From NCBI GenBank assembly GCA_025998755.1, contig AP024674.1:558001-622000 (forward strand): a stretch of DNA of 64,000 nt. Direction: 5' to 3'. The position numbers and the translations under genes were made by a program. Below, piece by piece: positions 1 through 22,631 of this stretch (positions are counted from its first letter, which is position 1; each line of letters begins with the position of its first letter). The DNA comes from Armatimonadota bacterium. GTDB lineage: Bacteria; Armatimonadota; UBA5829; DSUL01. The notes below the pieces were generated by a model. It saw only the letters and a list, made by a program, of their open reading frames with translations, ran no database searches and had not been told where the DNA came from.

Positions 1-3000
1 AAGCTGAACCGGAAGCTTGGGACCAGTATTCCCGAGAGCGTGACGCACGTCACGACTACCGACCTGCTGGAGATCCTGCGCTATATCATTCGCCTGAGCC
101 AAACTTCGGACGACTATCTGGCGTCCACGGACGATATCGACCACCTGGAGAATAAGCGCGTCCGGTCCATTGGCGAGCTGCTGCAGAGCCAGCTCCGCCT
201 GGGCTTCCTGAGGATGGAGAAGGTGGCCAAGGAGCGCATGACCAGCGCCGACCCGGGCAATATCATGCCCAACGTGGTGCTGTCGGTGAAGCCTATCTCG
301 GCCAGCATCAAAAGCTTCTTCGGTTCCAGCCAGCTCAGCCAGTTCATGGACCAGACCAATCCTCTCGCGGAGCTGGCTCACAAGCGCAGGCTGTCGGCTC
401 TGGGGCCGGGGGGACTCTCCCGTCAGAGCGCCAAGCTGGAAGTGCGCGATGTTCACCATTCGCACTTCGGGCGCATCTGCCCCATCGAGACGCCGGAAGG
501 CCCGAACATCGGGCTCATCGGCTCCATGGCCTGCCACGCGAAGATAGACGAATACGGCTTCCTGAGAACGCCTTATCGCGTGGTGAAGGACGGGGTGGCC
601 ACGAAGGAGCTGGTGTGGCTCTCGGCCGAGGAAGAGGAGCGCAGGCAGATCACGCACTTGAGCGACGAGCCGCATGTCCCGCGCATCCTGCCGGCAACTG
701 CCAAGACGGACGAGAACGGCAGGATTTTGGAGGAGAAGGTCATCGTTCGGGAGGGCAGTCAGTACCCCACGGTGGATCCGAAGACAGTGGACTATATGGA
801 AGTGTCCGCGGATCAGATGGTCTCCGTGGCGACGGCGCTCATTCCGTTCCTGGAGAACGACGACGCGAACCGCGCCCTGATGGGTTCCAACATGCAGCGT
901 CAGGCGGTGCCGCTGTTGCGCGCAGAGAGCCCACAGGTCAAGACCGGGCTGGAGGAGCGCGTGGCCCGGGATTCCGGGGCCATGGTGCTGGCGAAATCCA
1001 ACGGGGTTGTCAAGCGGGTTACGGCGGAGGAGATCGTCGTCGAGCGCGAAGACGGCACGGTGGACACCTATGCCCTGCTGAACCTGCTGCGCTCCAACCA
1101 GGGCACCTGCATCACGCAGAAGCCGGTGGTTCGTGCCGGTCAGCGTGTGCGCGCCGGAGACGTTCTTGCTGACGGCCCGTGCACAGACCATGGCGAGTTG
1201 GGGCTGGGCAAGAACGTGCTGGTCGCGTTCGTGCCCTGGCGTGGCTACAACTACGAGGATGCTATCCTGCTGTCCAGCCGGCTGGTCAAGGACGACGTCT
1301 ACACCTCCGTCCACATCGAGAAGTATGAGACGGAGGCAAGGGATACCAAACTGGGTCCCGAAGAGATCACTCGGGACATCCCCAATGTCGGTGAGGACCA
1401 GCTTAAGGATCTGGATGAGAACGGCATCATCCGCATCGGCGCGGAGGTGCAGGCCGAGGACATCATCGTTGGGAAGGTGGCTCCGAAGGGGCAGGGCGAG
1501 CTTTCTGCCGAGGAGCGCCTGATCATCGCCATCTTCGGGAAGAAAGCCGAGGAGACCCGTGACGTTTCGCTTCGCCTGCCGCACGGCGAGAAGGGTAAGG
1601 TGGTGGACGTCAAGGTGTTCTCGCGGTTCAAGTATCGCTGCGAGAGCTGCGGGGCGGTCTTCAACTTCTCCAAGAAGCCGGACCGCAACTCGTGCGAACG
1701 CTGCGAGGGCGATCTGACCAAGATGGCCCAGGGCGATGAGCTGAACCCCGGCGTGAACATGGTGGTCCGCGTGTATGTCGCCCAGAAGCGCAAGGTGATG
1801 GAGGGCGACAAGATGGCCGGCCGCCACGGGAACAAGGGAGTCATTTCCAAGATCCTGCCCGAGGAGGACATGCCGTTCCTGCCGGATGGGACGCCCGTGG
1901 ATATCGTCCTCAACCCCCTGGGGGTGCCAAGCCGCATGAACATCGGGCAGATTCTGGAGACTCATCTCGGCCTGGTGTCGCGGTATCTGGGTGTGAAGTT
2001 CGTGAACCCCATCTTCCAGGGCGCGACGGAAGCAGAGATTCTGGCCGACCTGGCCATCCTGGGCTGGCGCCTGCGGATCAACATCCTGCAAGATCTGCTG
2101 ACATCGGACCTCGGGCTGCCGGTGAAGCGGCTGCCGGAGCGGGATCTGAAAAAGCTGGTGGACCGCTGCCTGCTGGATCTTTCCCGCCGGGCGGAGCCGC
2201 CTTTCGAGGTGTCTGCGGAACCGCTCGCTGAGCGCTACCGGCAGATTTTGAAGGAGGCGCACAGCATACTGGAGCGGCTGGGGCCGCTACACCTGGAGGA
2301 GATCGCGCGGAAACTGGGGCTGCCGCCTGCCGTCCAAGAGCCAGAGAAGGCTTGGGAGTATCAGGCTTCCCTGATGGATGCCCGCCTGCGTGAGAGGCTT
2401 GAGCAGCAAGGGGTGGACATCCGCGAGGAGCTTGGCGAGGCGCGTGCCCGCGAGCTGGCGGCCGCTCCTCTGCCCGAGCCGAAGCTCACGCCGGCCGGGC
2501 TGGAAGTGGACCGCATCATCGAGGGGATCGAGCGGGTCGTCGAGAACCGCTGCGGGATTGACCCTCAGACGGGTAAGGCGCGTCTTCGAGACGGCATGAC
2601 CGGTGAGGAGTTCCTCAACCCGGTCACCGTGGGCCACATCTACATGATGAAGCTGGCCCACCTGGTGGACGACAAGATCCATGCCCGGTCCACGGGGCCT
2701 TACAGCCTGGTGACCCAGCAGCCGCTGGGCGGAAAGGCGCAGTTTGGCGGACAGCGCTTCGGAGAGATGGAAGTCTGGGCGCTGGAGGCCTACGGTGCGG
2801 CCTACACGCTGCAGGAGATCCTGACCATCAAGTCCGACGACGTGGTGGGACGCGTGAAGACCTACGAGGCCATCGTGAAGGGCGAGACCATTCAGGAGCC
2901 CGGGGTGCCGGAGTCGTTCAAGATCCTGGTCAACGAGCTCCAGAGCCTCTGCCTGAAGGTGTCGGTGGCCGACGACCACGACCGCGAGATTGACCTGCGC

Positions 3001-3102
3001 GACAGCGATGACGAATACCCGGACAGCGATGATCCGGTGAGAGCGGCGGCGCGCAGACGTTCGCAGATCATTCGGATGACGCCCGAGGAGACCAGACTAT
3101 GA
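1..3102 (+). CDS. rpoB: DNA-directed RNA polymerase subunit beta (5' end outside window)
   Basis: Catalytic beta subunit of RNA polymerase, N-terminal part cut off by the window edge. The reading frame is open from base 1, so the GTG at 40 is internal. Visible landmarks are the rifampicin region ([11 protein letters not shown], then [12 protein letters not shown]), [25 protein letters not shown] and the C-terminal [20 protein letters not shown] clamp segment. Two insertions stand out: a four-Cys zinc ribbon (Cys codons at 1639, 1648, 1693, 1702) at the position that holds the E. coli betai9/SI2 insert, and a helical Leu/Arg/Glu-rich insert at about 2041-2571 before the RDGMTGEEF motif. The acidic tail ends in an ATGA overlap with rpoC. 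Confidence 0.98.
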
Positions 3103-6100
3103 CGGACGCCAGGACATTCGACAAGATCCGAATCGGCATCGCCTCTCCGGACGAGATCCGCAGCTGGTCCTGCGGCGAGGTGAAAAAGCCGGAGACCATC
3201 AACTACCGCTCCTTCAAGCCGGAGCGCGACGGGCTGTTCTGCGAAAAGATCTTCGGGCCGGTCAAGGACTGGGAGTGCCATTGCGGACGCTATAAGAAGG
3301 TGAAGTTCAAGGGCATCGTCTGCGACCGCTGCGGCGTGGAGGTCACCCGCTCCAAGGTCCGGCGTGAGAGGATGGGCCACATCGAGCTGGCGACCCCCGT
3401 GTGCCACATATGGTACCTGAAGGGCGTCCCGAGCCCGCTCAGCCTCATTCTGGACATCCCTCCGCGCAACCTGGAGAAGGTTCTTTACTTCGCCTCCTAC
3501 ATCGTGACCAAGGCGGACCGCGAGCGGCTGAACGAGCTGATGGATGACATCCGGCGCGTGGCCGCCATGGAGATCGAGCATATCCAGGAGCAGCGCGACG
3601 AGAACATCGCCCGGATCCGCAAGGAGGGCGTCCGCCAGATCCGCGAAGGCGGGGAGGAGGGCGAGGCTCTCTCTGAAGAGGATGCCGAGGGTGTTCAGAG
3701 AGATGTCGAGTCGCGCATCCGGGAGGAAGAGGAAGACGCCGAGGAGCGAATCGAGGATATCAACGCGGCGCTCCGGCTCATTGAAAGCGTCCAGAAGTTC
3801 GAACTGATTACGGACGACCAGTACCGGCAGATCGAGCATCTGCTGGAGGTTGTGTCGGAACGGCTGGACCGCGATGTGACCGGCGTGTTCGAAGCCGGAA
3901 TGGGCGGCGCGGCCATCCGGCAGCTTCTGGCCGAGGTGGACCTGGAGGCTCTCCAGCGCCAGCTGCGCACCGAGATCGCCCAGACCCAGGGACCGAAGCG
4001 GGCGCGCGCCATCAAGCGGCTGGAGATCGTGGACGCCTTCATCGAGTCCCGCAGCCGCCCGGAATGGATGATCCTGGAGTGCATCCCGGTCATCTCTCCG
4101 GAGCTGCGCCCGATGGTTCAGCTGGACGGCGGACGGTTCGCCACCAGCGACCTGAACGACCTGTACCGCCGTATCATCAACCGGAACAACAGGCTGAAGA
4201 AGATTACGGAGATCCGCGCGCCGGAGTCCATCGTCAACCACGAGAAGCGCCTCCTTCAGGAGGCGGTGGACGCGCTCATCGACAACGGGCGGCGCGCCCG
4301 CCCCGTTGTGGGCTCCAACAACCGCCCGCTGAAGTCGCTCTCCGACATGCTGAAAGGCAAGGAGGGGCGCTTCCGGAAGAACCTCCTGGGCAAGCGCGTG
4401 GACTACTCCGGGCGCTCGGTCATCGTCGTGGGTCCGCACCTCAAGCTGCATCAGTGCGGGCTTCCCAAGGAGATGGCGCTGGAGCTGTTCAAGCCGTTCG
4501 TCATGAAGACCCTGGTGGAGCGGGGCTTCACGACGAACATCAAGACGGCCAAGCGCATGATAGACCGGATGAAGCCGGAGGTCTGGGATGCTCTGGAGGA
4601 GGTCATCCACGAGCATCCGGTTCTTCTGAACCGCGCCCCCACGCTGCACAGGTTGGGCATTCAGGCCTTCGAGCCGGTGCTGGTGGATGGAAAGGCCATT
4701 CAGATCCATCCGCTGGTGTGCCACGCCTACAACGCGGACTTCGACGGAGACCAGATGGCGGTGCATGTGCCGCTGTCCTGGACGGCGCAGGCCGAGGCGC
4801 GCGTGCTGATGCTTTCCACATCGAACCTGTTCAGCCCGGCGGATGGACGGCCCATCGTTGCGCCGGTGCAGGACATCGTGCTGGGCGCCTACTACCTGAC
4901 CCAGATGGCCCCGGGTGAGCCGGGCGAGTTCGTCTATTCCTCGCCGCAGGAGGCGTTGCTGGCTCACGACAACGGGGTGCTCAGGCTTCAGGAGCCGATC
5001 CGCGTGCGCATCGCGGATCCGGCTACAGGTGAGAAGCGCATCGAGGTCACGACCCCGGGGCGGCTGATCCTCAACGGTATCCTGCCGGAGAGCCTGCGAT
5101 GGGTCAACGACCTGCTGGACAAGAAGAAGCTGGCACAACTGGTCAACCGCTGCTATGAGGCGGAAGGCCGGATGCGGACCATCCAGCTGCTGGACGAACT
5201 GAAGAGCCTCGGGTTTCTGTACGCCACCAAGGGCGGGATCACTATCTCGATGACGGATATGGACATCCCCGCCAAGCGCGATGAGATCATCCGCCGGACG
5301 GAAGAGGCTGTCATCAAGCAGAATCGCTACTACGAGATGGGGCGCATCACCCAGAGCGAGCGGCGCAGCAACGTCCAGGAGCTTTGGATGAAGGCGGCCG
5401 ATGAGGTGGCGGACGCCATTCTGGAGCACATCTCTCACGACAACCCGATCCACATCATCACGGATTCGGGAGCGCGCGGCAGCACCAAACAGATCACGCA
5501 GCTCGCAGGAATGCGCGGTCTGATGAGCGACCCGTTCGGGAACCTCATCGAGGACCTGCCCATCAAGTCCAACTTCCACGAGGGACTCTCTGTGCTGGAG
5601 TACTTCATCTCCACGCACGGAGCGCGCAAGGGTCTGGCCGACACGGCCCTGCGGACCGCGGACGCCGGATACCTGACCCGGAGGCTGGTGGACGTCGCGC
5701 AGGACGTCATCATCCGCGGCCACGATTGCGGCACCACGCAGGGCGTCAAGGTGGCCGCCATCGAGGAGAGCGGCGAGGTCATCGAGACCCTGAAAGAGCG
5801 CATCCGTGGCCGGACGGCGCTGGAGGACATCCTGTTGCCGGGCGAAAGCGAGCCCGTCGTCCGCGCCGGCGAGATCATCACGAACGAGCAGGCGGCGCGC
5901 ATCGAGGAGTCGGGCATCACAGAGGTCTGGATCCGCAGCCCGCTGATGTGCGAGCAGAGGCAGGGAGTCTGCTCCCGCTGCTATGGTCTGGATCTGGCCA
6001 CCGGTACGGAGGTGGAGATCGGGACGGCGGTGGGCATCATCGCGGCGCAGTCCATCGGAGAGCCCGGCACGCAGCTCACCATGCGAACGTTCCACACCGG

Positions 6101-7412
6101 AGGCGTCGCGGGTAAGTATCTGACCGGCGTTGCCGAGGTCAAGAAGAAGAAACAGGAATCCCTGCGCGAGCTGCACGAGGACATGAGGCAGGGCATCATC
6201 TCCTTTGATGAAGGGGAGCATCACGCGGAGCGCGAGCGCACCCGGGCTATCCAGCAGGTTCTGAAGGTGCTGGAGGATCAGGTCCGGGGGCTGCTGCGGG
6301 TGGTGGAGCTCTTCGAGGCGCGCAAGCCCAAGGGGCAGGCCATCATCACTGAGGTCGGCGGCCGCGTGGCGGACATCGAGACTACGGGCCTCAAGAAAGT
6401 GGTCATCCACTCGCCGCATCCGGTTTCGGAACCGATCGGCTCCGGCGAGGTGTTGGCGGAGGATGTGGTGGACCCGGACACCGGCGAGGTGCTGGCCTCC
6501 AAGGGCAGCGAGGTCAACGAGAAGCTCCTGCGCAAGCTTCGGGAGACCTCCGTCAAGGAAGTGATGCTGCGCAAGACCCATCTGGTGCCTTACCGCGGCA
6601 ACCTGGAGGTGGAGATCGGCGACATCGTGCAGCCCGGCGACCGGCTTACGGAAGGTCCGCTCGATCCGCAGAAGGTTCTGCAGCTTCAGGGCGTGCGCGG
6701 TGTGATGGATTATCTGGTGCGGGAGATCCAGAGCGTCTACAAGTCCCAGGGCGTGGACATCAATGACAAGCACGTGGAGGTGATCGTCCGACAGATGCTG
6801 CGCAAGCGGAAGGTGGTGGAGCCGGGCGACACCACGTTCCTGCCGGGGCAGGTGGTGGACAAGTTCGTCTTCGAGGACGAGAATCGCCGCGTGCTGTCGC
6901 AGGATCCTCCGGGGACTCCGGCGACGGCGGAATGGGTGCTGCTGGGCATCACCGAGGCGTCGCTGGCGACCGAAAGCTTCCTGTCGGCGGCTTCCTTCCA
7001 GAAGACCACGCGGGTTCTGACCGATGCTGCGGTGCGCGGCAAGGTGGACAATCTGGTCGGGTTGAAGGAGAACGTCATCATCGGACGGCTTATCCCGGCC
7101 GGGACGGGTCTGCCGATGTATCGGGACCTGGTGGTCACGGACGGCAACGGCGTTCTGCTGGCACCCATTACCAGCCGGGCGCAGCAGGCGTCGCGCCAGC
7201 AGGAGGATTTTGCGGAAATTCTTCCTGTGGACCGGGCGCGGGACGTCCTGGCGGAGCCAGAGCCGGAACCCGAACCCGAGATGGAAGAGGACGTCGAGGA
7301 GGCGGTGGATCTTGCTCTGGAGTCCATAGATCTGGAGGATCTGGACGAGGAGGCCGTGGATGCGGAGATCGAGGCGGATTTCGACCCGACCTCCGAGGAG
7401 GCCGAGATATAA
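3099..7412 (+). CDS. rpoC: DNA-directed RNA polymerase subunit beta'
   Basis: Catalytic beta' subunit, 1437 aa. The N-terminal zinc site (CHCG, then CDRCG) is intact. NADFDGDQM near residue 550 carries the Mg2+ aspartates. The second zinc site uses CGTTQGV and [13 protein letters not shown]. The trigger-loop start ([14 protein letters not shown]) is followed by a charged, probably helical insert of about 59 residues (nt 6114-6290), where Bacillus and Thermus have about six. The N-terminal region also has a Glu/Arg-rich coiled-coil stretch (about residues 150-220). The C-terminus has a Pro-Glu repeat and an acidic tail. ATG overlaps the rpoB stop by 4 nt, so the two are translationally coupled. 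Confidence 0.98.
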
Positions 7413-7439
7413 GAGCGGCCATCGTCTGAGGCGTTAGCT

Positions 7440-7474
7440 CCGGGGAGACAGGGTGCAGGCCCTGCTCTCCCCGG
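7440..7474 (+). terminator. strong hairpin after rpoC
   Basis: Just after the rpoC stop, CCGGGGAGA pairs with TCTCCCCGG and the stem continues inwards as CAGGG with CCCTG, with a small bulge. The hairpin is very stable, but the bases that follow are not a T tract, so it may be a weak or factor-assisted terminator or an mRNA 3'-end stabiliser. Confidence 0.5.
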
Positions 7475-7545
7475 CCGATAATCTCTTTCCGGGCGCCGGC
7501 GCGCCTGAAAAACGTTGTTTTGTTGCCGGCGCGTTGCGGCGGATG

Positions 7546-7574
7546 TTGACAACGCCGCAGTGTTCCGGTATATT
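7546..7574 (+). promoter_or_regulatory. sigma-70 promoter of the str operon
   Basis: TTGACA at 7546-7551 and TATATT at 7569-7574 are separated by 17 bp, an almost perfect housekeeping promoter. Predicted transcription start is near 7581, giving a leader of about 266 nt before rpsL. It sits downstream of the hairpin that follows rpoC and is the best candidate for driving rpsL onwards. Confidence 0.8.
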
Positions 7575-7580
7575 GTCACG

Positions 7581-7846
7581 GTTCGACCATTCGGGGCTGC
7601 CCCGCATAACGTCTTCGAGGGGCGCTCCGGCTCACGAAGGGGGCGATAGGGCATCCAGCAGGCCAGTCGCAATTGACCGATTTTGACCTGGGTTCCCAGG
7701 CGTCTGTATGCCCCTCGTGTGTGTGTCGAGGGGTTTTTTGTTGCCGGGCCACGAAGCTGGATGTCGCCCGGGTGCCGTGAGGGGTTGTTCCCGCCCGGAG
7801 TCGGGCAGAGGGACACGTTTCTGAAGTGGAGTAGACCAGTCAGGTT
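7581..7846 (+). promoter_or_regulatory. structured rpsL leader, probable transcription attenuator
   Basis: Leader between the str promoter and rpsL. It contains a tight hairpin (CGGGG-CTG-CCCCG, about 7592-7604), the segment CGAGGGGC at 7616-7623, a palindrome CCTGGG-TT-CCCAGG at 7687-7700, and an intrinsic terminator at 7711-7739. CGAGGGGC is an exact 8-nt complement of 7710-7717, the 5' arm of the terminator, so it can act as an antiterminator. No second good promoter lies between the terminator and rpsL, so reading into the operon probably needs readthrough. A separate ~160-nt small RNA ending at the terminator is the alternative. Confidence 0.5.
7711..7739 (+). terminator. intrinsic terminator inside the rpsL leader
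   Basis: CCCCTCG (7711-7717) pairs with CGAGGGG (7727-7733) around a 9-nt TG-repeat loop and is followed directly by six T. It lies upstream of rpsL and downstream of the only strong promoter, which is the arrangement of an attenuator. Confidence 0.8.
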
Positions 7847-8218
7847 ATGCCAACGATCAGTCAACTGGTGCGCAAGGGGCGACAGAAGGTCCGCAAAAGG
7901 ACGGCTTCGCCTGCTCTGAAAAAGAACCCGCAGAAGCGCGGGGTGTGCCTGGTGGTGAGGACGGTTCCGCCGAAGAAGCCGAACTCTGCCCTCCGCAAGA
8001 TCGCCAGGGTTCGCCTGACCAACGGGATGGAGGTTACGGCATACATCCCGGGCATCGGGCACAACCTTCAGGAGCACTCCGTGGTGCTCATTCGGGGAGG
8101 CCGCGTGAAGGATCTGCCGGGTGTGCGCTATCACGTGGTGCGCGGCACGCTCGATACGGCCGGAACGCGCGACCGCAAGAGCAGCCGCTCGAAGTACGGG
8201 ACCAAGAAGCCCAAGTAA
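7847..8218 (+). CDS. rpsL: 30S ribosomal protein S12
   Basis: Decoding-centre protein S12, 123 aa, full length. The [11 protein letters not shown] loop with the streptomycin-related lysine, and the [11 protein letters not shown] loop with the aspartate that is methylthiolated in many bacteria, are both present. The C-terminus is basic ([14 protein letters not shown]). First gene of the str operon, behind a long structured leader. No strong Shine-Dalgarno is obvious close to the ATG. Confidence 0.98.
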
Positions 8219-8758
<540 letters not shown>

Positions 8759-8922
8759 CTCCGGTTCGAGTATCTCTTTTCGGGGGCGGGCTGACTGTGA
8801 AGGAATGTCCGCCCCTGAGTTTGCCGTCCGGCCCGGGGCCAGCTTGAGGCCGGCAAGAATGTGCCGCTATACGGCAACAACGTCTCTTTTCGGAAGTTGA
8901 CATAGCAGACACAGGGATCAGA
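8759..8922 (+). promoter_or_regulatory. rpsG-fusA intergenic region with hairpins and a possible promoter
   Basis: The 164-nt gap holds a GGGGCGG/CCGCCCC inverted repeat (about 8783-8815), a TGCCG-CTATA-CGGCA hairpin (8862-8876) and an 11-bp direct repeat TCTCTTTTCGG (8773-8783 and 8883-8893). A weak promoter-like pair, TTGAGG-18 bp-TATACG, overlaps the second hairpin. It may modulate fusA expression relative to rpsL-rpsG. TTGACA near 8897 is too close to the fusA start to be its -35. Confidence 0.3.
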
Positions 8923-11013
<2,091 letters not shown>

Positions 11014-11089
11014 GTCCGGGCCGGAGGAGCTGCGCGGGCCTGGAGCGGGTCCGCCTCCCGGCGGCGGTCTAGAAAGGATCGTAGAGGAG

Positions 11090-12292
<1,203 letters not shown>

Positions 12293-12335
12293 GCAGCCTG
12301 ATCCGGCGGGCGATGCAGAGGGACTGAAAGAAGCG

Positions 12336-12644
12336 ATGCGAAGGGACAAGGTCAGGATACGCTTGAAGGCGTTCGATCACAAAGTGCTCGACCAGTCCGC
12401 TGAGCGGATCGTCGAGACCGTGCGGCGGACGGGGGCCAAGATATCGGGCCCGGTGCTCCTTCCCACGAAGAAGGAGATCTTCTGCGTGAACCGGGGGCCC
12501 AACATTGACAAGGAGTCTATGGAGCACTTTCAGCTCTGCACGCACAAGCGGCTGATTGATATCCTGAATCCGGGCCCCAAGACGATTGACGCGCTCATGA
12601 GGCTGGACCTCCCGAGCGGTGTGAACATAGAGATCAAGTTGTAG
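12336..12644 (+). CDS. rpsJ: 30S ribosomal protein S10
   Basis: S10, 102 aa, a 30S head protein and NusE partner in antitermination. Start is the ATG followed by [15 protein letters not shown]; an upstream in-frame extension into tuf is not needed. The conserved THKRLIDI and [12 protein letters not shown] segments are present. First gene of the S10 operon, only 43 nt after tuf, with no clear promoter in between, so the str and S10 genes may be co-transcribed. Confidence 0.97.
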
Positions 12645-12646
12645 TC

Positions 12647-13330
12647 ATGGATGCCTGTATCCTGGGAACGAAGATCGGTATGACCAGCCTCTACGACGAG
12701 AACGGCACGCTGGTGCCCGTGACCGTCGTAAAGGCGGATCCGTGCGTGGTCGTGCAGCGCAAGACGGTGGAGCGCGACGGCTACAGCGCGGTGCAGGTGG
12801 GCGGAGTGGCTGCCAGGCTGCGAAAGCCGCTGGCCGGCAAGAAGCCGAAGCAGCCGCTCAAGCGCCACGGGCTCAACAAGCCGCAGGCGGGGCACCTGGC
12901 GAAGGCTGGTGTGGAGCCTGTCAAGTATCTCCGCGAGTTCCGCGTCCCGGCGGATGAGGAGATCCCCGTGGGGCATCAGCTCACTGTGGAGCAGTTCTCC
13001 GAAGGCGATGTCCTCGCCGTGACGGGCACCAGCAAGGGCAAGGGCTTTGCGGGAGCCGTGAAGCGGTGGCACTTCCACGGGGCGGATATGACCCACGGTT
13101 CAATGATCCACCGCAAGCCGCAGTCCGGCGGCGCAACGGACCCGGCGCGCACGTTCAAAGGCGTCAAGCGGCCCGGACGGATGGGCGGCGAGCGGGTCAC
13201 CGTGCGAAGCGTCAAGGTGTTCGGCGTGGATCCGGAACGGTCCCTGCTGCTGTTGAAGGGCCCGGTGCCGGGAGCTAACGGCGGCCTGCTCACCATCAAA
13301 CGGCTGAAGGCCGGGAAGGGAGCCGGATAA
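12647..13330 (+). CDS. rplC: 50S ribosomal protein L3
   Basis: L3 starts 50S assembly and its long loop reaches the peptidyl-transferase centre. 227 aa, slightly longer than the usual ~210. It begins with LGTKIGMTSLYDENG and contains the KGKGFAGAVKRWHF loop and the GSMIHRKPQSGGATDPARTF region. It starts 2 nt after rpsJ and its stop abuts rplD. Confidence 0.98.
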   Translation: MDACILGTKIGMTSLYDENGTLVPVTVVKADPCVVVQRKTVERDGYSAVQVGGVAARLRKPLAGKKPKQPLKRHGLNKPQAGHLAKAGVEPVKYLREFRVPADEEIPVGHQLTVEQFSEGDVLAVTGTSKGKGFAGAVKRWHFHGADMTHGSMIHRKPQSGGATDPARTFKGVKRPGRMGGERVTVRSVKVFGVDPERSLLLLKGPVPGANGGLLTIKRLKAGKGAG

Positions 13331-13957
13331 ATGGCATCTGCGCCTCTCTTTGATGCCCAGGGACGCCAGGCGGGGACGGTGGATCTGTCCGACGGTCTTT
13401 TCGGCGTCGAGGGGAAGATCAGTCTTGTCCATCAGAAGCTGGTAGCGGAGCGCAACGCGCAGCGCCAGGGCACTTCCGATACCCGGACACGCGGTGAGGT
13501 CTCGGGTGGCGGGCGTAAGCCCTACCGTCAGAAGGGGACCGGCCGCGCACGTCAGGGCAGCATCCGGGCTCCGCACTATGCCAAGGGTGGCACGGTGTTT
13601 GGCCCGCATCCGCGGGACTATACCCAGAAGATGCCCCGGCGGATGCGCCTGGGAGCGCTCCGGTCTGCATTGTCGCTGAAGGCCCAGGCAGGCGAAGTGC
13701 TGGTGATCGAGGAGTTCCATCTTCCTGAGATCTCCACGCGGACGGCGGCTCTGTTGCTGGACGCGATGGGCGTGGACGGGAAGGCCACCGTGGTGCTGCC
13801 GGAGCGCGATGAGGTGGTGCTGAAGTCGGTGCGCAACATCCCCGGTGTTCAGGCCAGACGTGCGCTCGATCTGTCTGTCGAGGATGTGGTCGGCGGAGGG
13901 CGTCTGGTGATCACCCGCGCGGCGCTGGAGAAGATGCAGGAGGTCTGGGCGGGATGA
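13331..13957 (+). CDS. rplD: 50S ribosomal protein L4
   Basis: L4 lines the exit tunnel through its extended loop; 208 aa. The loop is visible as [19 protein letters not shown] followed by [12 protein letters not shown]. The C-terminal domain ends with the segment in which L4 [11 protein letters not shown]-type residues occur. ATG directly follows the rplC stop and the 3' end overlaps rplW by 4 nt. L4 autoregulates the S10 operon in E. coli; no equivalent leader structure was identified here. Confidence 0.97.
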
Positions 13958-14241
13958 GAGATCCTTACACCATCATCAGGAATCCGCACGTCACGGAGAA
14001 GAGCATAGACGGCACGGCGCAGGGAAAATACACCTTCGTCGTTGCTCCGGATGCCAACAAGATCGAGATCCGTCAGGCTATCGAAGCCATCTTCAACGTC
14101 AAGGTGGAGAAGGTCAACACCGTGAATGTGCGGGGCAAAATGCGCCGCCGAGGCCGGACTCAGGGGAAGACCGCGGACTGGAAAAAGGCCATCGTCACCC
14201 TGGCACCGGGCAGCAAGATTGATCTGTTTGAAAGGGCGTAA
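13954..14241 (+). CDS. rplW: 50S ribosomal protein L23
   Basis: L23 sits at the tunnel exit and is the docking site for trigger factor and SRP; 95 aa, normal length. The start [15 protein letters not shown] and the [18 protein letters not shown] loop are typical. Overlaps rplD by 4 nt (ATGA). Confidence 0.97.
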
Positions 14242-14247
14242 CATTAG

Positions 14248-15078
<831 letters not shown>

Positions 15079-15109
15079 TCGGGCATACGAGAGGCTGAAG
15101 TAGCGTTCC

Positions 15110-15394
15110 ATGTCACGTTCTCTGAAGAAAGGTCCCTACGCGGACCCCAAGCTGCTGAAGAAGATCGACGAGATGAATGCTCGCCGGGAGAAGAAGATCA
15201 TCAAGACCTGGTCCCGGCGCTCGACCATCTTCCCGAGCATGATCGGGCATACGCTCGCCGTGCACGACGGACGCAAGCACGTGCCCGTGTTCATCACGGA
15301 GAACATGGTGGGGCACAAGCTTGGGGAGTTCGTGCTGACCCGGACCTTCCGGGGGCATGCGGGCAAGTCGGAGCGCTCGACACGCGTCAAGTAG
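15110..15394 (+). CDS. rpsS: 30S ribosomal protein S19
   Basis: S19 of the 30S head, 94 aa. The signature runs from [10 protein letters not shown] through [20 protein letters not shown] to the [13 protein letters not shown] region. It sits 31 nt after rplB, in the usual order. Confidence 0.98.
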
Positions 15395-15476
15395 TGTTAC
15401 AGGAGTGGGGCACGCGGCCTTTAGCCGTCCGAGGCGGGGCAGCGTGCGCGCAGAAAGGCGATCTGAAGACAGCGTT

Positions 15477-16148
15477 ATGGCAAGGCTGACACGCGCAAGA
15501 GCATCCTACGTGCTGATGTCGCCACGCAAGGCCAGGCTGGTGCTGGACCTGGTGCGGGGACGGTACGTTGACGATGCGGTGGCTATCCTGAAGGCGGTCC
15601 CGAACCGGGCGGCCCGGGTGGTGGAGAAGCTGGTGAACTCCGCCGCCGCGAACGCGGAGGCGAACCTGCACATCAGCCGGGATTCACTGAAGGTGAAGGG
15701 AGCCTTCGCCGACCAGGGACCGTCGCTGAAGCGCTTCCAGCCGCGCGCCATGGGGCGGGCGTACCGCATTCTGAAGCGGACCAGCCACATCACGGTGATC
15801 GTGGAGGAGGCGGAGCCCAGACCGTCCGTCAAGCGCCTGGCGCATACGGTGACGAAGGCGGAAGCCAGAGGGCGGCGTAAGCGCGGCGAGGAGGAGGCTC
15901 AGTCCGGGCAGAAGCGCGGGCGGGCCCGGAAGCAGGTTCAGCAAGCCGCGCCGCAGGTGGAAGAACCGACCGCTCCGGCCGAGGAGCAGCCTGTGGCCGA
16001 AGCTCCGGCTGTGGAGACGCCCCAGGCGGAGAGTTCTACCCCGGCCGAATCCGCTCAGGCTGATGTCGAGGCGCAGGATGCCGGCGCTACCGGGGAAGAG
16101 CCCGCGGGCGAGGGCGAGCCGAAGTCCGAGGATAAGGGAGACAGCTAG
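15477..16148 (+). CDS. rplV: 50S ribosomal protein L22 with long C-terminal tail
   Basis: L22 lines the exit tunnel. The start is the ATG giving MARLTRARASYVLMSPRKAR; an in-frame start 120 nt upstream would only add read-through of the rpsS end. Residues 1 to about 112 are the normal L22 fold, ending RTSHITVIVEE. A further ~110 residues follow: first basic (GRRKRGEE, KRGRARKQ), then a Pro/Ala/Glu repeat-like acidic region with no recognisable domain. The total of 223 aa is about twice the family norm. The stop abuts the TTG of rpsC. Confidence 0.96.
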   Translation: MARLTRARASYVLMSPRKARLVLDLVRGRYVDDAVAILKAVPNRAARVVEKLVNSAAANAEANLHISRDSLKVKGAFADQGPSLKRFQPRAMGRAYRILKRTSHITVIVEEAEPRPSVKRLAHTVTKAEARGRRKRGEEEAQSGQKRGRARKQVQQAAPQVEEPTAPAEEQPVAEAPAVETPQAESSTPAESAQADVEAQDAGATGEEPAGEGEPKSEDKGDS

Positions 16149-16883
16149 TTGGGTCAGAAGATACATCCAATCGGGCTGCGGATCGGCATTATCCGTGACT
16201 GGGACAGCAAGTGGTATGCCGACCGGGAGTTCCCGGAATATCTGAAGGAAGACGCCGAGATCCGGCGCTTCATCAAGCGGCGCTTGGGGCAGGCGGGTAT
16301 CTCGCGGGTGGAGATCGAGCGGGCCGCGAACCGCGTGAAGGTCACCCTCCACACCGGCAAGCCCGGCATCATCATCGGGCGCGGCGGCAAGGGGATTGAC
16401 GAGCTTCAGGCGCGGTTGCAGGTTCTGACGAAGCGCCCTGTCCACGTGTCTGTGTCCGAGGTGCGGGTGCCCGACCTGGATGCCCAGCTCGTGGCGGAGA
16501 ACATCGCCGGTCAGATCGAGCGGCGTGTAGCTTACAAGCGTGCCATGCGTCAGGCCGTGTTGCGCGCGATGCGTCTGGGCGCCAAGGGCATCAAGATCCG
16601 GGTCGCCGGACGGCTGGGTGGCGCCGAAATGGCTCGTGTGGAGAACGACAAGCAGGGGAAGATTCCGCTGCATACGCTCCGTGCGGACATAGATTACGGC
16701 TTCGCCGAGGCGCGCACCACGTACGGTCATATCGGCGTGAAGGTGTGGATCTACCGGGGCGACATCCTGAAGGATGGCGTGCGGCCGGAGCCGGAGTGGC
16801 ACGGCGGACAGCGTGAGGGTGAGCGCCGGGCTGAGGATGGGCGTCGCTCGCGCGGCCGGGCAGGCCGGGATGGAGGAGTCTGA
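16149..16883 (+). CDS. rpsC: 30S ribosomal protein S3
   Basis: S3 forms part of the mRNA entry tunnel; 244 aa. Start [20 protein letters not shown] from a TTG that directly follows the rplV stop. The KH domain GRGGKGID motif and the C-terminal [10 protein letters not shown] are present, with a basic/acidic tail of about 35 residues. Confidence 0.98.
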
Positions 16884-16886
16884 GCC

Positions 16887-17330
16887 ATGTTGATGCCCAA
16901 GAAGGTGAAGCATCGCAAGCACCAGCGGGGCTCGATGGCCCATAAGAGCAACGCCGGTACCGAGATCAACTTCGGGGAGTATGCTCTTCAGGCGCTGGAA
17001 CCCTGCTGGATGACGAACAACCAGATCGAGGCGGCCCGCGTGGCTATGACACGCCACGTCAAGAGAGGCGGCCAGGTGTGGATCCGGATCTTCCCGGACA
17101 AGCCGGTGACCAAGAAGCCGGCCGAGACCCGTATGGGTAGCGGCAAGGGGGCTCCAGAGTCCTGGGTGGCGGTGGTGAAGCCGGGCAGGATTCTCTTCGA
17201 GATGAGCGGCGTTGCCGAGCCGATGGCGCGCGAGGCCATGCGGCTGGCGGCGCACAAGCTGCCCATCAAGACAAGGTTTATCAAGAAACAGGAGCTGGGA
17301 GAGATCCTTGAAGAAGGCGGAGTTGCGTAA
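16887..17330 (+). CDS. rplP: 50S ribosomal protein L16
   Basis: L16 organises the A-site tRNA region of the 50S; 147 aa. Start [15 protein letters not shown], with the conserved [23 protein letters not shown] region and GSGKGAPE loop. Its last 23 nt overlap rpmC. Confidence 0.98.
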
Positions 17331-17523
17331 GACCGTCCGGGAAGCCTCGGACGCCGAGCTGGACAAGCAGTTGGAGGATGCTCGCAAGGAGCTGTTCCAC
17401 CTGCGGTATCAGCGCGCCACGAAGCAGCTGGAGAAGCCGCATCGCATCCGCGAGGCGCGCAAGCAGATCGCCCGGCTGCTGCAGGAGCGCACCGAGCGCC
17501 GGAAGGCGCGGGAGGCGAGTTGA
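17308..17523 (+). CDS. rpmC: 50S ribosomal protein L29
   Basis: L29, about 71 aa, a two-helix protein at the tunnel exit. [20 protein letters not shown] is the family signature. The start is taken as TTG at 17308 ([14 protein letters not shown]), inside the end of rplP; TTG at 17323 is a shorter alternative. Overlapping reading frames suggest translational coupling to rplP. Confidence 0.93.
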
Positions 17524-17525
17524 GG

Positions 17526-17795
17526 ATGGCAGAGTCCACACAGACGCGCGGGCGCAGAAAAGTCCGCCAGGGCGTGGTAGTCAGTGACAAGATGGACAAG
17601 ACCATCGTGGTCGAGGTCCAGCAGCTTGTCCGCCACCCCCTGTACGGGAAGATCATGCGCCGCAATGCGCGGTTCAAGGCGCACGACGAGAACAACGAGT
17701 GCGGCATCGGCGACACCGTGGAGATTATGGAGTGCCGCCCTCTGTCGCGCGAGAAGCGCTGGCGGCTGGTGCGGATCGTCGAGAAGGCCAAGTAG
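17526..17795 (+). CDS. rpsQ: 30S ribosomal protein S17
   Basis: S17, 89 aa, an early-assembly OB-fold protein. Typical motifs are [26 protein letters not shown] and [16 protein letters not shown] at 17526 is preferred over TTG at 17520 because GGAGG (17511-17515) lies 10 nt from the ATG but only 4 nt from the TTG. Confidence 0.96.
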
Positions 17796-17816
17796 CGGAC
17801 GGGGGACTGACGGGAG

Positions 17817-18185
17817 ATGATCCAGCAGTATACCAGACTTAAGGCGGCGGACAACTCGGGAGCTCGCGAGATTATGTGCATCCGCGTGCTGAAGGGAAGC
17901 GCCGGCAAGTACGCGCAGGTGGGGGATACCATCGTTTGCGCGGTCAAGCAGGCGGCACCCGGCGCGGCGGTCAAGAAGGGTGACGTGGTGAAGGCCGTGG
18001 TGGTGCGGACGCATCATCCAATCCGCCGGCCGGACGGTTCCACCCTGAAGTTCGATGACAACGCGGCGGTGCTGATCAACAACGCGGGTGAGCCGCGCGG
18101 AACGCGCATCTTCGGGCCGGTGGCCCGCGAACTGCGCGAGAAGAATTACATGCGCATCATTTCGCTGGCGCCCGAGGTCCTGTGA
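17817..18185 (+). CDS. rplN: 50S ribosomal protein L14
   Basis: L14, 122 aa, part of intersubunit bridges. [20 protein letters not shown] start, [14 protein letters not shown] middle and [20 protein letters not shown] end are textbook. First gene of the spc segment, 21 nt after rpsQ, with no sign of a separate promoter. Confidence 0.98.
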
Positions 18186-18216
18186 GACCGGGGGAACCCT
18201 TAAAGAGACTACGACC

Positions 18217-18582
18217 ATGCGTAAGAAGCAGGAGAAGTTCACGGGAAAGCTGCGGCTGAAGAAGGGTGACGAGGTCGTCGTCCTGGCCGGCAAAGACCGG
18301 GGTAAGCGCGGCAAGATCGTGGACGTGGATCCCGAGAAGGGCTACGTCTACGTGGATGGCGTCAACATCCAGGTGCGCCATCAGCGGCCGCGCAAGCCGA
18401 CCAGGGCCATGCCGCAGACTCAGACCGGGCGCATCGAGCGGCCGGGGCCGCTCCACCGCAGCAAGGTGATGCTGATAGACCCGCACTCCGGCAAGCCGAC
18501 CCGGATTGCGATGGGGCTGACCTCTGATGGGCGCCGGGTGCGGGTGAGCAAGAAGTCCGGAGAGTTCATAGACGATGTCTAA
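18217..18582 (+). CDS. rplX: 50S ribosomal protein L24
   Basis: L24, 121 aa, an assembly initiator with a KOW motif ([20 protein letters not shown]). Start is the ATG giving [18 protein letters not shown]; in-frame codons upstream lie in the rplN 3' end and are not needed. The last 8 nt overlap rplE. Confidence 0.96.
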
Positions 18583-19246
18583 GGGCAAGCAGAGCACAAA
18601 GCAGCCGGCGCCCCAGGCGGCGGGCAAGGCCAAGGGCAAGGGCGAGGCCGAGGCGGGGCCGAAGGCTCCGGCCGGAGTCGCCAAGCAGGCTCCCCGCGCC
18701 GAGCCGCCAAGGCTCAAGGTGCGCTATCGCGAGGAGATCGCTCCCCGCCTGATGGAGCAGTTCGGATACAAGAACCCGAACTGCGTGCCCCGCCTGGTCA
18801 AGGTGGTGGTGAACATGGGCGTGGGGCAGGCCATTCAGGATCCCAAGATCCTAGACGGCGCGGTAGCGGATATGACGGTCATCACGGGGCAGAAGCCCGT
18901 GGTGACGGTGGCGCGCAAGTCCATCTCCAACTTCAAAGTGCGCGCCGGGATGCGCGTGGGCTGCCGGGTCACGCTGCGCGGCGATCGGATGTACGACTTC
19001 CTCGACAAGCTGTTCCACGTGGCGCTGCCCAGAGTCCGCGACTTCGGGGGAGTGCCGCCGGATTCGTTCGACGGCCGCGGCAACTTCGCGATGGGACTGC
19101 GGGAGCAGCTGGTGTTCCCGGAGATTGACTACGACAAGATAGATCGGATCCGGGGGCTCAACGTTGCGGTGGTGACGACCGCTAAAACGGATGAAGAGGG
19201 CCGGGCGCTGCTGAAGGCCCTGGGGTGTCCGTTCCGGGAGGTTTAG
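18575..19246 (+). CDS. rplE: 50S ribosomal protein L5 with N-terminal extension
   Basis: L5 binds 5S rRNA and contacts P-site tRNA. The conserved part begins at about residue 47 ([15 protein letters not shown]) and contains [30 protein letters not shown] and [15 protein letters not shown]. The first ~46 residues are a Lys/Ala/Pro/Gly-rich extension not found in ordinary L5 (about 180 aa, against 223 aa here). The start is fixed by overlap with rplX; no later Met lies before the conserved core. Confidence 0.96.
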
Positions 19247-19256
19247 CGAGTAGAGG

Positions 19257-21335
19257 ATGGCCAAACACACTGCCGAAACAATCCGCAATATCGCCCTGAT
19301 GGGCCAGAGGGGGGCCGGCAAGACGTCGCTGGCTGAGCTCCTGCTGTTCAAGGCAGGGGCAATAGACCGGCTCGGAAAGGTGGACGACGGGACGGCCACC
19401 TGCGACTACGACCCGGACGAGGTTCAGCGCAAGATGTCCGTGTCCACCGCCATTGCTCCGCTGGAGTGGGGCAAGGTCAAGGTGAACCTGGTGGACACTC
19501 CGGGCTATCTGGACTTCGTTGGCGACGTTGCCGGGGCGGCGGCGGTGTGCGAGGCGGCCCTTATTCTGGTGGATGCTGTCGGCGGTGTGGAAGTCGGCAC
19601 GGAGATGGGCTGGGACTTCGCGGAGGCCTGTCAGGCTCGCGCGTTCCTGGTCAACAAGATGGACCGCGAGAACGCGGACTTTCACGCCGTGCTGAACGCG
19701 CTGCGGGAGAAGTTCGGGAACCGGGTGGTGGCGCTGCAGCTGCCGATCGGACGCGAGGATTCCTTCCAGGGGCTGGTGGACATCGTCCATATGAAAGCCT
19801 ACACCTGGAAGGACGGCAAAATGACCGAGGGCGAGATCCCGGCGGACCTGCAGAGCGAGGCGGCATCCCTGCGCGAGGCGCTGGTGGAGGCCGCGGCAGA
19901 AGGCAGCGATGAGCTGATCGAGAAGTATTTCCTGGAAGAGACCCTGACCGACGAAGAGATCGTCGAAGGGACACACGCCGGGATCAAGGCGGGGAAGCTG
20001 GTTCCGGTGTTCGTGGCATCGGCGACCAAAGGGATCGGCGCCGAGCCGCTGCTGGACCTGATCGCCGCGGAGTTCCCGTCTCCGGCCGAGGCTCCGCCGC
20101 GCGAGGGGCGCCAGCTGGGTGGCGATGCGCGCATAAAGCGCTCGGCCGCGGACCCACAGTTCTCCGCGCTGGTGTTCAAGAGCACGGCCGACCCTTACGT
20201 GGGCAAGCTGACGTACTTCCGGGTGGTCAGCGGTTCCGTCTCTTCGGACTCGCACGTCTGGAATGCCACGCGCGACCACGACGAGCGCATCGGGCAGCTC
20301 TATTTCCTGAAGGGCAAGCAGCAGATCGCTACGAGTGAGATCGGTGCCGGTGACATCGGCGCGGTGGCCAAGCTGCAGGATACGGTGACCGGAGACACAC
20401 TGTGCGACAAGGCGGCCGGGATCATTTTCGACCCCATCGCCTTCCCGGAGCCGGTGTTCTCCCTGGCCATCTCGGCAAAGAGCAAGGCGGACGAGGATAA
20501 GCTGGGTCCGGCGCTGGCGAAGCTGGCGGAGGAGGATCCCACCTTCAAGTATCACCGGGACCCGGAGACGGGGCAGACGCTCATCAGTGGGCTAGGCGAG
20601 ACCCACGTGGAGATCGTCATAGACCGGCTGAAGCGCAAGTTCGGGGTGGAGGTGGAGTCGTCCACGCCGCGCATCCCGTACAAGGAGACCATCCGGGCCT
20701 CGGCCAAGGTGCAGGGCCGTCACAAGAAACAGACCGGCGGCCGCGGGCAGTTCGGCGACTGCTGGGTGGAGTTCCAGCCGCTGGAGCGTGGCGGCGGGTT
20801 CGAGTTTGTGGATAACATCGTGGGCGGCGCGATCCCGCGCCAGTACATCCCCGCGGTGGAGAAGGGGATCCGCGAGGCCATGGAGCGCGGCCTGGTGGCA
20901 GGGTATCCGGTGGTGGATGTCCGGGCCATCGTGTATGACGGCTCGTTCCATCCTGTGGACTCCTCGGAAATGGCGTTCAAGCAGGCGGGTATCAACGCCC
21001 TGCACGCCGCCGCGGACAAGGTGGACCCCGTTATCCTGGAGCCCATTCTGAACGTCGAGATCAACGTTCCCGAGGAGTTCATGGGAGACGTCATCGGCGA
21101 CCTGAACGGCAAGCGAGGGCGCATCCAGGGAATGGAGCCGATCGGAAACGGGCGGCAGCTCGTGCGCGCGCAGGTGCCTCTGGCGGAGATGCAGCGATAC
21201 GCCATAGACCTGAAGTCCATCGCGCGCGGGCGGGGCTCGTTCAAGACGGAGTTCAGCCACTACGAGGAGGTGCCGCCGCATCTTCAGCAGCAGATCATCG
21301 AAGAGGCGAAGAAGCGGGCGAGCGCCGAGGAGTAG
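19257..21335 (+). CDS. elongation factor G-like GTPase (EF-G2 type) inside the spc operon
   Basis: A 692-aa protein with all five EF-G domains but divergent GTPase motifs. The P-loop is GQRGAGKTS, switch I RKMSVSTA replaces RGITIT, and G3 is DTPGYLDF, so tyrosine replaces the catalytic-type histidine of DTPGH; G4 NKMD is kept. Domain IV has GGRGQFGDCW, and the C-terminus ends FSHYEEVPPH. This fits the EF-G-like/EF-G2 family, whose mycobacterial member is reported to lack normal translocase activity; its role is unknown. It begins 10 nt after rplE and precedes rpsN, so it is co-expressed with ribosomal proteins. Confidence 0.9.
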   Translation: MAKHTAETIRNIALMGQRGAGKTSLAELLLFKAGAIDRLGKVDDGTATCDYDPDEVQRKMSVSTAIAPLEWGKVKVNLVDTPGYLDFVGDVAGAAAVCEAALILVDAVGGVEVGTEMGWDFAEACQARAFLVNKMDRENADFHAVLNALREKFGNRVVALQLPIGREDSFQGLVDIVHMKAYTWKDGKMTEGEIPADLQSEAASLREALVEAAAEGSDELIEKYFLEETLTDEEIVEGTHAGIKAGKLVPVFVASATKGIGAEPLLDLIAAEFPSPAEAPPREGRQLGGDARIKRSAADPQFSALVFKSTADPYVGKLTYFRVVSGSVSSDSHVWNATRDHDERIGQLYFLKGKQQIATSEIGAGDIGAVAKLQDTVTGDTLCDKAAGIIFDPIAFPEPVFSLAISAKSKADEDKLGPALAKLAEEDPTFKYHRDPETGQTLISGLGETHVEIVIDRLKRKFGVEVESSTPRIPYKETIRASAKVQGRHKKQTGGRGQFGDCWVEFQPLERGGGFEFVDNIVGGAIPRQYIPAVEKGIREAMERGLVAGYPVVDVRAIVYDGSFHPVDSSEMAFKQAGINALHAAADKVDPVILEPILNVEINVPEEFMGDVIGDLNGKRGRIQGMEPIGNGRQLVRAQVPLAEMQRYAIDLKSIARGRGSFKTEFSHYEEVPPHLQQQIIEEAKKRASAEE

Positions 21336-22064: not shown

Positions 22065-22631
22065 ATGTCACGGATAGGACTGAAGCCGATACCGAAGCCG
22101 GCCGGGGTGAAGGTGAGCGTGCAGGAGGGGAACGAGGTCCTGGTCGAGGGACCGAAGGGCAAGCTCAGCCGGAAGCTGTGGCCGCATCTCAAGATTGATG
22201 TCGGCGACAGTGAGATCACGGTGTCGCGGTCGTCCGACGAGCGCGAGCACCGCTCCATGCACGGCCTTACCCGCACTCTGCTGGCCAATATGGTCGAAGG
22301 GGTCAGCAAGGGTTATGAGAAGGCCCTGGTCATCGGTGGTGTGGGCTACCGCGCCCAGCTGGACGGGAAGAAGCTGGTCGTGCAGGTGGGGTACTCCCAT
22401 CCGGTGGTTGTGGAGCCGAAGCCCGGCATCGAGTTCGAAGTGGGCCAGGAGCACGGGACCCGCGAGCCGGTGATCATCGTGCGCGGTATTGACAAGGAGA
22501 CTGTCGGGCAGCAAGCGGCGGAGATCCGCAAGATCCGGCCTCCTGAGCCTTACAAGGGCAAGGGGATCCGCTACCGGGGCGAGTATATCCGCCGGAAGGC
22601 CGGGAAAGCCGGGAAGGCTGCCGGCAAGTAG
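22065..22631 (+). CDS. rplF: 50S ribosomal protein L6
   Basis: L6, 188 aa, near the factor-binding site. [17 protein letters not shown] start, [31 protein letters not shown] and the C-terminal [13 protein letters not shown] are typical. The end has a short Lys/Ala/Gly-rich tail. Confidence 0.98.

Follow-up and report, generated by a model that had tools for sequence, protein, structure and literature searches.

A predicted transcription attenuator with a conserved antiterminator precedes the str operon of an Armatimonadota bacterium

The leader of the str operon in the window, the whole stretch of 64,000 nucleotides analyzed, is probably a transcription attenuator, in which a predicted duplex termed P1 would serve as the antiterminator. 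This reading is based on the promoter, the terminator, P1, the conservation of the leader and the specificity of its cognate strands, all of which are demonstrated computationally. The conserved switch formed by the promoter, terminator and antiterminator is very probably a real attenuator. As a class-wide rpsL leader, it is best read as an element that would be antiterminated by default and would stop transcription if some factor kept the antiterminator from forming. The leader elements (Table 1) sit between the end of rpoC (7412) and the start of rpsL. The S10, spc and alpha genes come after tuf, and the cluster from rpsL to rplQ (7847-30743) lies on one strand throughout. Because the leader fronts this cluster, it may govern the output of many ribosomal proteins, and it is a candidate dimmer for ribosome production in a little-studied phylum.

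Table 1. Positions in the window of the leader elements and of the genes of the str operon.
Feature	Position	Strand	Remarks
Promoter TTGACA-17-TATATT	7546-7574	+	-35 TTGACA 7546-7551, -10 TATATT 7569-7574
Predicted leader RNA	7580-7739	+	~160 nt if terminated; start inferred
5' hairpin P0	7591-7630	+	7591-7597 x 7624-7630; 7599-7603 x 7619-7623
Putative antiterminator P1, 5' strand	7633-7648	+	CACGA-A-GGGGGC-GATA: AGGRGGC motif plus extensions
P1-enclosed domain	7649-7705	+	candidate sensor; 56/57 identical in congener
Putative antiterminator P1, 3' strand	7706-7719	+	terminator 5' arm and loop; overlaps terminator 7711-7733
Intrinsic terminator	7711-7739	+	7-bp stem, loop UGUGUGUGU (class-wide GUGUG), U6
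Spacer, terminator to rpsL	7740-7846	+	no promoter-like site; largely unconserved (64% vs congener over 7740-7830)
rpsL (S12)	7847-8218	+	first gene under putative leader control
rpsG	8288-8758	+	remainder of str operon
fusA	8923-11013	+	remainder of str operon
tuf	11090-12292	+	remainder of str operon

An earlier note on this DNA described a near-consensus promoter, a complete intrinsic terminator and the lack of a strong promoter downstream of it, and all three are borne out. The promoter is the single occurrence of TTGACA-N16-18-TATANT in the 64-kb window, where 0.01 is expected, and the top-scoring sigma-70-like site within positions 1-20000. Its TTGACA is unchanged in all 20 class leaders examined, and the stretch from the promoter to the start is identical to that of the congener (34/34). 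Transcription is inferred to start near 7580, from the position of the -10 element and from the GGTTCG/AGTTCG found class-wide; the predicted leader RNA begins with (A)GGTTCG, as do most class leaders. The terminator is exact in the sequence, CCCCTCG-TGTGTGTGT-CGAGGGG-T6 as DNA and CCCCUCG-UGUGUGUGU-CGAGGGG-U6 as RNA. A generic terminator scan missed it, because the loop limit of the scan is 8 nt, and only three terminators of exactly this form are present in the 3.29-Mb genome. No promoter-like site is found in the spacer between the terminator and rpsL, where the best score is 5 of 12. Just 3' of rpoC, a strong hairpin without a U-tract is observed at 7436-7473 (CCGGGGAG...CTCCCCGG), as is a similar one in the related locus L004; it is possibly a processing site or a weak rpoBC terminator.

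Folding of the leader, calculated at equilibrium and not co-transcriptionally, gives energies of -60.4, -58.4 and -55.3 kcal/mol for the P1 state, the terminator state and the state in which CGAGGGGC pairs with the terminator, respectively. The P1 state is thus favored over the terminator state by 2.0 kcal/mol. P1 consists of the pairs 7633-7637 x 7715-7719 (CACGA with UCGUG, P ~0.93, last pair 0.51) and 7640-7644 x 7710-7714 (the core, GGGGC with GCCCC, P ~0.6), and is extended by 7706-7709. The earlier note had assigned the role of the antiterminator to the pairing of CGAGGGGC at 7616-7623 with 7710-7717. CGAGGGGC is present at this position and its 8-bp complementarity is exact, but the pairing has a P of ~0.00 in the complete leader and of <=0.02 at any nascent length tested, and its state is worse than the P1 state by ~5 kcal/mol. 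CGAGGGGC lies within the 3' arm and loop of P0. It is found only in one congener, in which the leader is identical there, and the family's two other genera lack it; the octamer is not unusual either, with four occurrences in the window versus 7.3 expected. It is very unlikely that CGAGGGGC acts as the antiterminator. The attenuator proposed in the earlier note is supported as to the class-conserved promoter, terminator and antiterminator, but not as to the partner that it gave to the terminator. Class leaders are likewise predicted to have a 5' hairpin, with differing sequences.

The whole leader shows no extra folding stability over shuffled sequences (z ~0), and its best duplexes exceed those of shuffles only modestly (mean z -0.64, 14% in the top 5%). 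Because this duplex search gave a weak signal, a swap test was used in its place, with 60 leaders that were selected for GGRGG and come from 17 families. Relative to the expectation from the row and column means, the pairing of cognate strands is stronger by 2.9 kcal/mol, a value reached by 0/5000 permutations and with 13/17 families in agreement; the members of a family are related and not independent, and family-level tests repair this relatedness only in part. Covariation across related leaders, a check proposed in the earlier note, is found between the 5' extension of P1 and the terminator loop (z -6.8; family level 12/5000) and between the 3' extension and the pre-arm bases (z -6.4; family level 29/5000), and is not found in two crossed controls with mismatched regions. 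The P1 core, which is nearly invariant, shows little covariation. Pairing with the CACA-like 5' extension would explain why the GUGUG loop is conserved. The covariation of P1 and its overlap with the terminator are those of an antiterminator that would be mutually exclusive with the terminator. The signal lies in conservation and specific pairing, not in overall fold stability.

When the upstream sequence is dinucleotide-shuffled, the predicted probability of the terminator rises from 0.39 to 0.75 (p 8e-7), and from 0.19 to 0.75 in the class subset. This result suggests that natural leaders are built to undo the terminator. The predicted fold favors the terminator in three class leaders (L009, L024 and L113). 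The unremarkable fold energies agree with a constitutive partial terminator, which together with the promoter would give a fixed ratio without a trigger, as does the fact that no trigger is known. This explanation is nevertheless improbable, because neither the matched, covarying antiterminator nor the near-invariance of the enclosed domain would be required for a fixed terminator.

The region from the promoter to the U-tract (7546-7739) is identical to that of the congener at 193/194 positions. In comparison, the identity is 64% in the 92 columns after the U-tract and 88% at the third codon positions of rpsL. This result indicates that selection acts from the promoter through the U-tract, including the domain between the AGGRGGC motif and the terminator. 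Pre-rpsL regions were collected for 127 genomes within the phylum of the host, of which 25 make the class nearly complete. Nearly all class leaders contain, in this order, a TTGACA promoter, an (A)GGUUCG start, a 5' hairpin, AGGRGGCRAU, an internal domain and a terminator, GCCCYUC-(GUGUG)-GARGGGC-U, followed by rpsL; the terminator is strong in 19/25 of them. A covariance model built from families f3-f5 only was run over 28 whole genomes. It matches the window genome (3.29 Mb) at a single site, window 7625-7740 (E 0.046), which is its one leader copy, and gives pre-rpsL matches in 4/8 other genomes of families f1 and f2 (G001, G002, G006 and G008). Within the class, the leader is single-copy and lies ahead of ribosomal protein genes, with two further weak matches in G016 and G007. 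Three f3 relatives (L013, L017 and L112) keep the promoter and terminator and lack AGGRGG; L013 and L017 have a common, different leader (GGTCAGTGTCTGGCTGT...), and the question arises whether the antiterminator has been replaced.

Outside the class, the model detects almost nothing (two weak matches), and the internal domain differs from family to family, so that common descent rests on architecture. Phylum-wide descent of the leader is likely, and is a weaker claim than class-wide homology. AGGAGG is the top enriched hexamer before the rpsL terminators of the phylum (37/81 leaders versus 3.6 in shuffles), followed by AGGGGG (18 versus about 4), and AGGTGG is not enriched. AGGRGG is located mostly 51-95 nt upstream of the terminator and is missing from certain large groups, among them parts of family f16. 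With terminators called by our own rule, a strong terminator is present in 74 of the 126 leaders inside the phylum, and in 57 it is accompanied by GGRGG in place; for 67 loci from other phyla, these numbers are 13 and 3, respectively. Two loci, L051 and L057 (Roseiflexus and a Chloroflexota MAG), have in common a promoter-proximal GC-rich hairpin followed by ATTTTATT (CTGTGCGGAAAACGCACAGG), which differ from the host leader. This arrangement is a possible further form of rpsL leader. A tree of S12 and S7 likewise does not place the host with the one named Chloroflexota entry, and this position and the size of the host phylum (about 245 species) speak against Chloroflexota as its label.

According to the proposed mechanism, RNA polymerase would start near 7580 and make P0, the AGGRGGC strand and then the enclosed domain. 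The emerging 5' arm and loop of the terminator would pair with the AGGRGGC strand to form P1, which should form first, because both of its strands precede the 3' arm of the terminator in the transcript. Once formed, P1 would preclude the terminator and the operon would be transcribed by default; when P1 is blocked, transcription would terminate at 7739. If read-through is the default, control must come from an agent that blocks P1. This blocker would exert negative feedback; the likeliest candidate is S7 or S12, which in excess would bind to P0, the AGGRGGC strand or the enclosed region. By analogy with ribosomal protein leaders, the trigger may well be a protein encoded in the operon, with S7 and S12 as the most likely candidates, and the near-invariant enclosed domain together with P0 could be its binding site. 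Within this domain, CGCAATTGACC at 7668-7678 resembles, as judged by eye, an RRACAAYURAA element found class-wide, and is a candidate recognition element. The idea of a helix 18 mimic recognized by S12 (AGGGGGCGA is also present in helix 18 of the host's own 16S rRNA) was rejected, because the leader sequence does not track 16S changes in other families.

The enclosed domain may alternatively be a small-molecule aptamer that stabilizes or destabilizes P1. P1 closes a domain as in many riboswitches, and the CAAUU-like element is conserved in the class. This is unlikely, however, because the domain varies between families, unlike riboswitch aptamers, and the leader has no match in Rfam.

AGGRGG also invites readings that involve the ribosome, because AGGAGG is a perfect Shine-Dalgarno core and the host's own 16S rRNA ends in CACCTCCTTTCT. 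If AGGRGG were the ribosome binding site of a leader peptide, translation would decide between P1 and the terminator. A start codon (ATG, GTG or TTG) is, however, present at the usual spacing in only 6/60 leaders, and none conserved in the class was seen when looked for. Such translational coupling is highly improbable, and the leader peptide was rejected as a candidate, with no conserved ORF found behind the motif. AGGRGG may instead be a Shine-Dalgarno sequence without a start; occupied by free 30S subunits or by the 3' ends of 16S rRNA, it could not form P1, and the str operon would be switched off. If true, the operon would respond directly to the pool of free small subunits. The rarity of start codons is counted as a hint for this reading, as are the enrichment of AGGAGG, the fourth position of the AGGRGG motif, which is mostly A or G, both of which pair with the U of the anti-Shine-Dalgarno sequence, and the 16S 3' ends, in which CACCTCCT is kept in 14/14 of those readable across the phylum. 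The reading is doubtful; the motif could be explained by pairing with GCCCCU alone. No 16S mimicry is found in the leaders, whose mean local score is 10.3 versus 9.9 in shuffles, a result that would still allow a protein encoded in the operon to bind.

Attenuators before rpsL are already known, with predictions in several phyla, and are multiform. Naville & Gautheret 2010 (PMC2965389) described rpsL-leaders in Listeria, Xanthomonas, Pseudomonas and Rickettsia without any globally conserved sequence or structure, and cited earlier predictions by Merino and Yanofsky. As described in that paper, which names no member of the host group, these leaders resemble the present one in the operon, the terminator before rpsL and the possible alternative antiterminator. 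The present putative attenuator likewise lies directly upstream of rpsL. It differs in that one layout, promoter, AGGRGGC and GCCCYU terminator, is found in many families of one phylum and covaries. It represents one conserved form with a defined antiterminator, where earlier rpsL attenuators had no common feature. The rpsL motif of Candidatus Pelagibacter ubique (Meyer 2009, PMC2704228), known only from SAR11-like marine sequences, is also a structured RNA between rpoC and rpsL and a presumed ribosomal protein leader, but it has a bulged P1 and a three-stem junction and does not qualify as a terminator. In E. coli, S7 is the known autoregulator of the str operon (Saito and Nomura, reviewed in PMC10931766). 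The feedback proposed here would act on the same genes, but by termination ahead of rpsL, whereas S7 represses translation at the rpsL-rpsG gap. Eckert & Weinberg 2020 (PMC7247131) described 20 r-leaders, which are likewise covarying, cis-acting RNAs before ribosomal protein genes, but none is upstream of rpsL or the str operon (Table 1 of that paper). Rfam gives no match at the gathering score in the window or in 16 related loci, and only chance matches when relaxed to E up to 10. The present form is new to Rfam and to the papers searched, which exclude subscription papers and preprints.

A second EF-G of 692 aa with all EF-G domains is encoded at 19257-21335 (+) of the window, within the spc section of the ribosomal cluster. 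It directly follows rplE (18575-19246) and precedes rplF (22065-22631), an unusual location for an EF-G paralogue.
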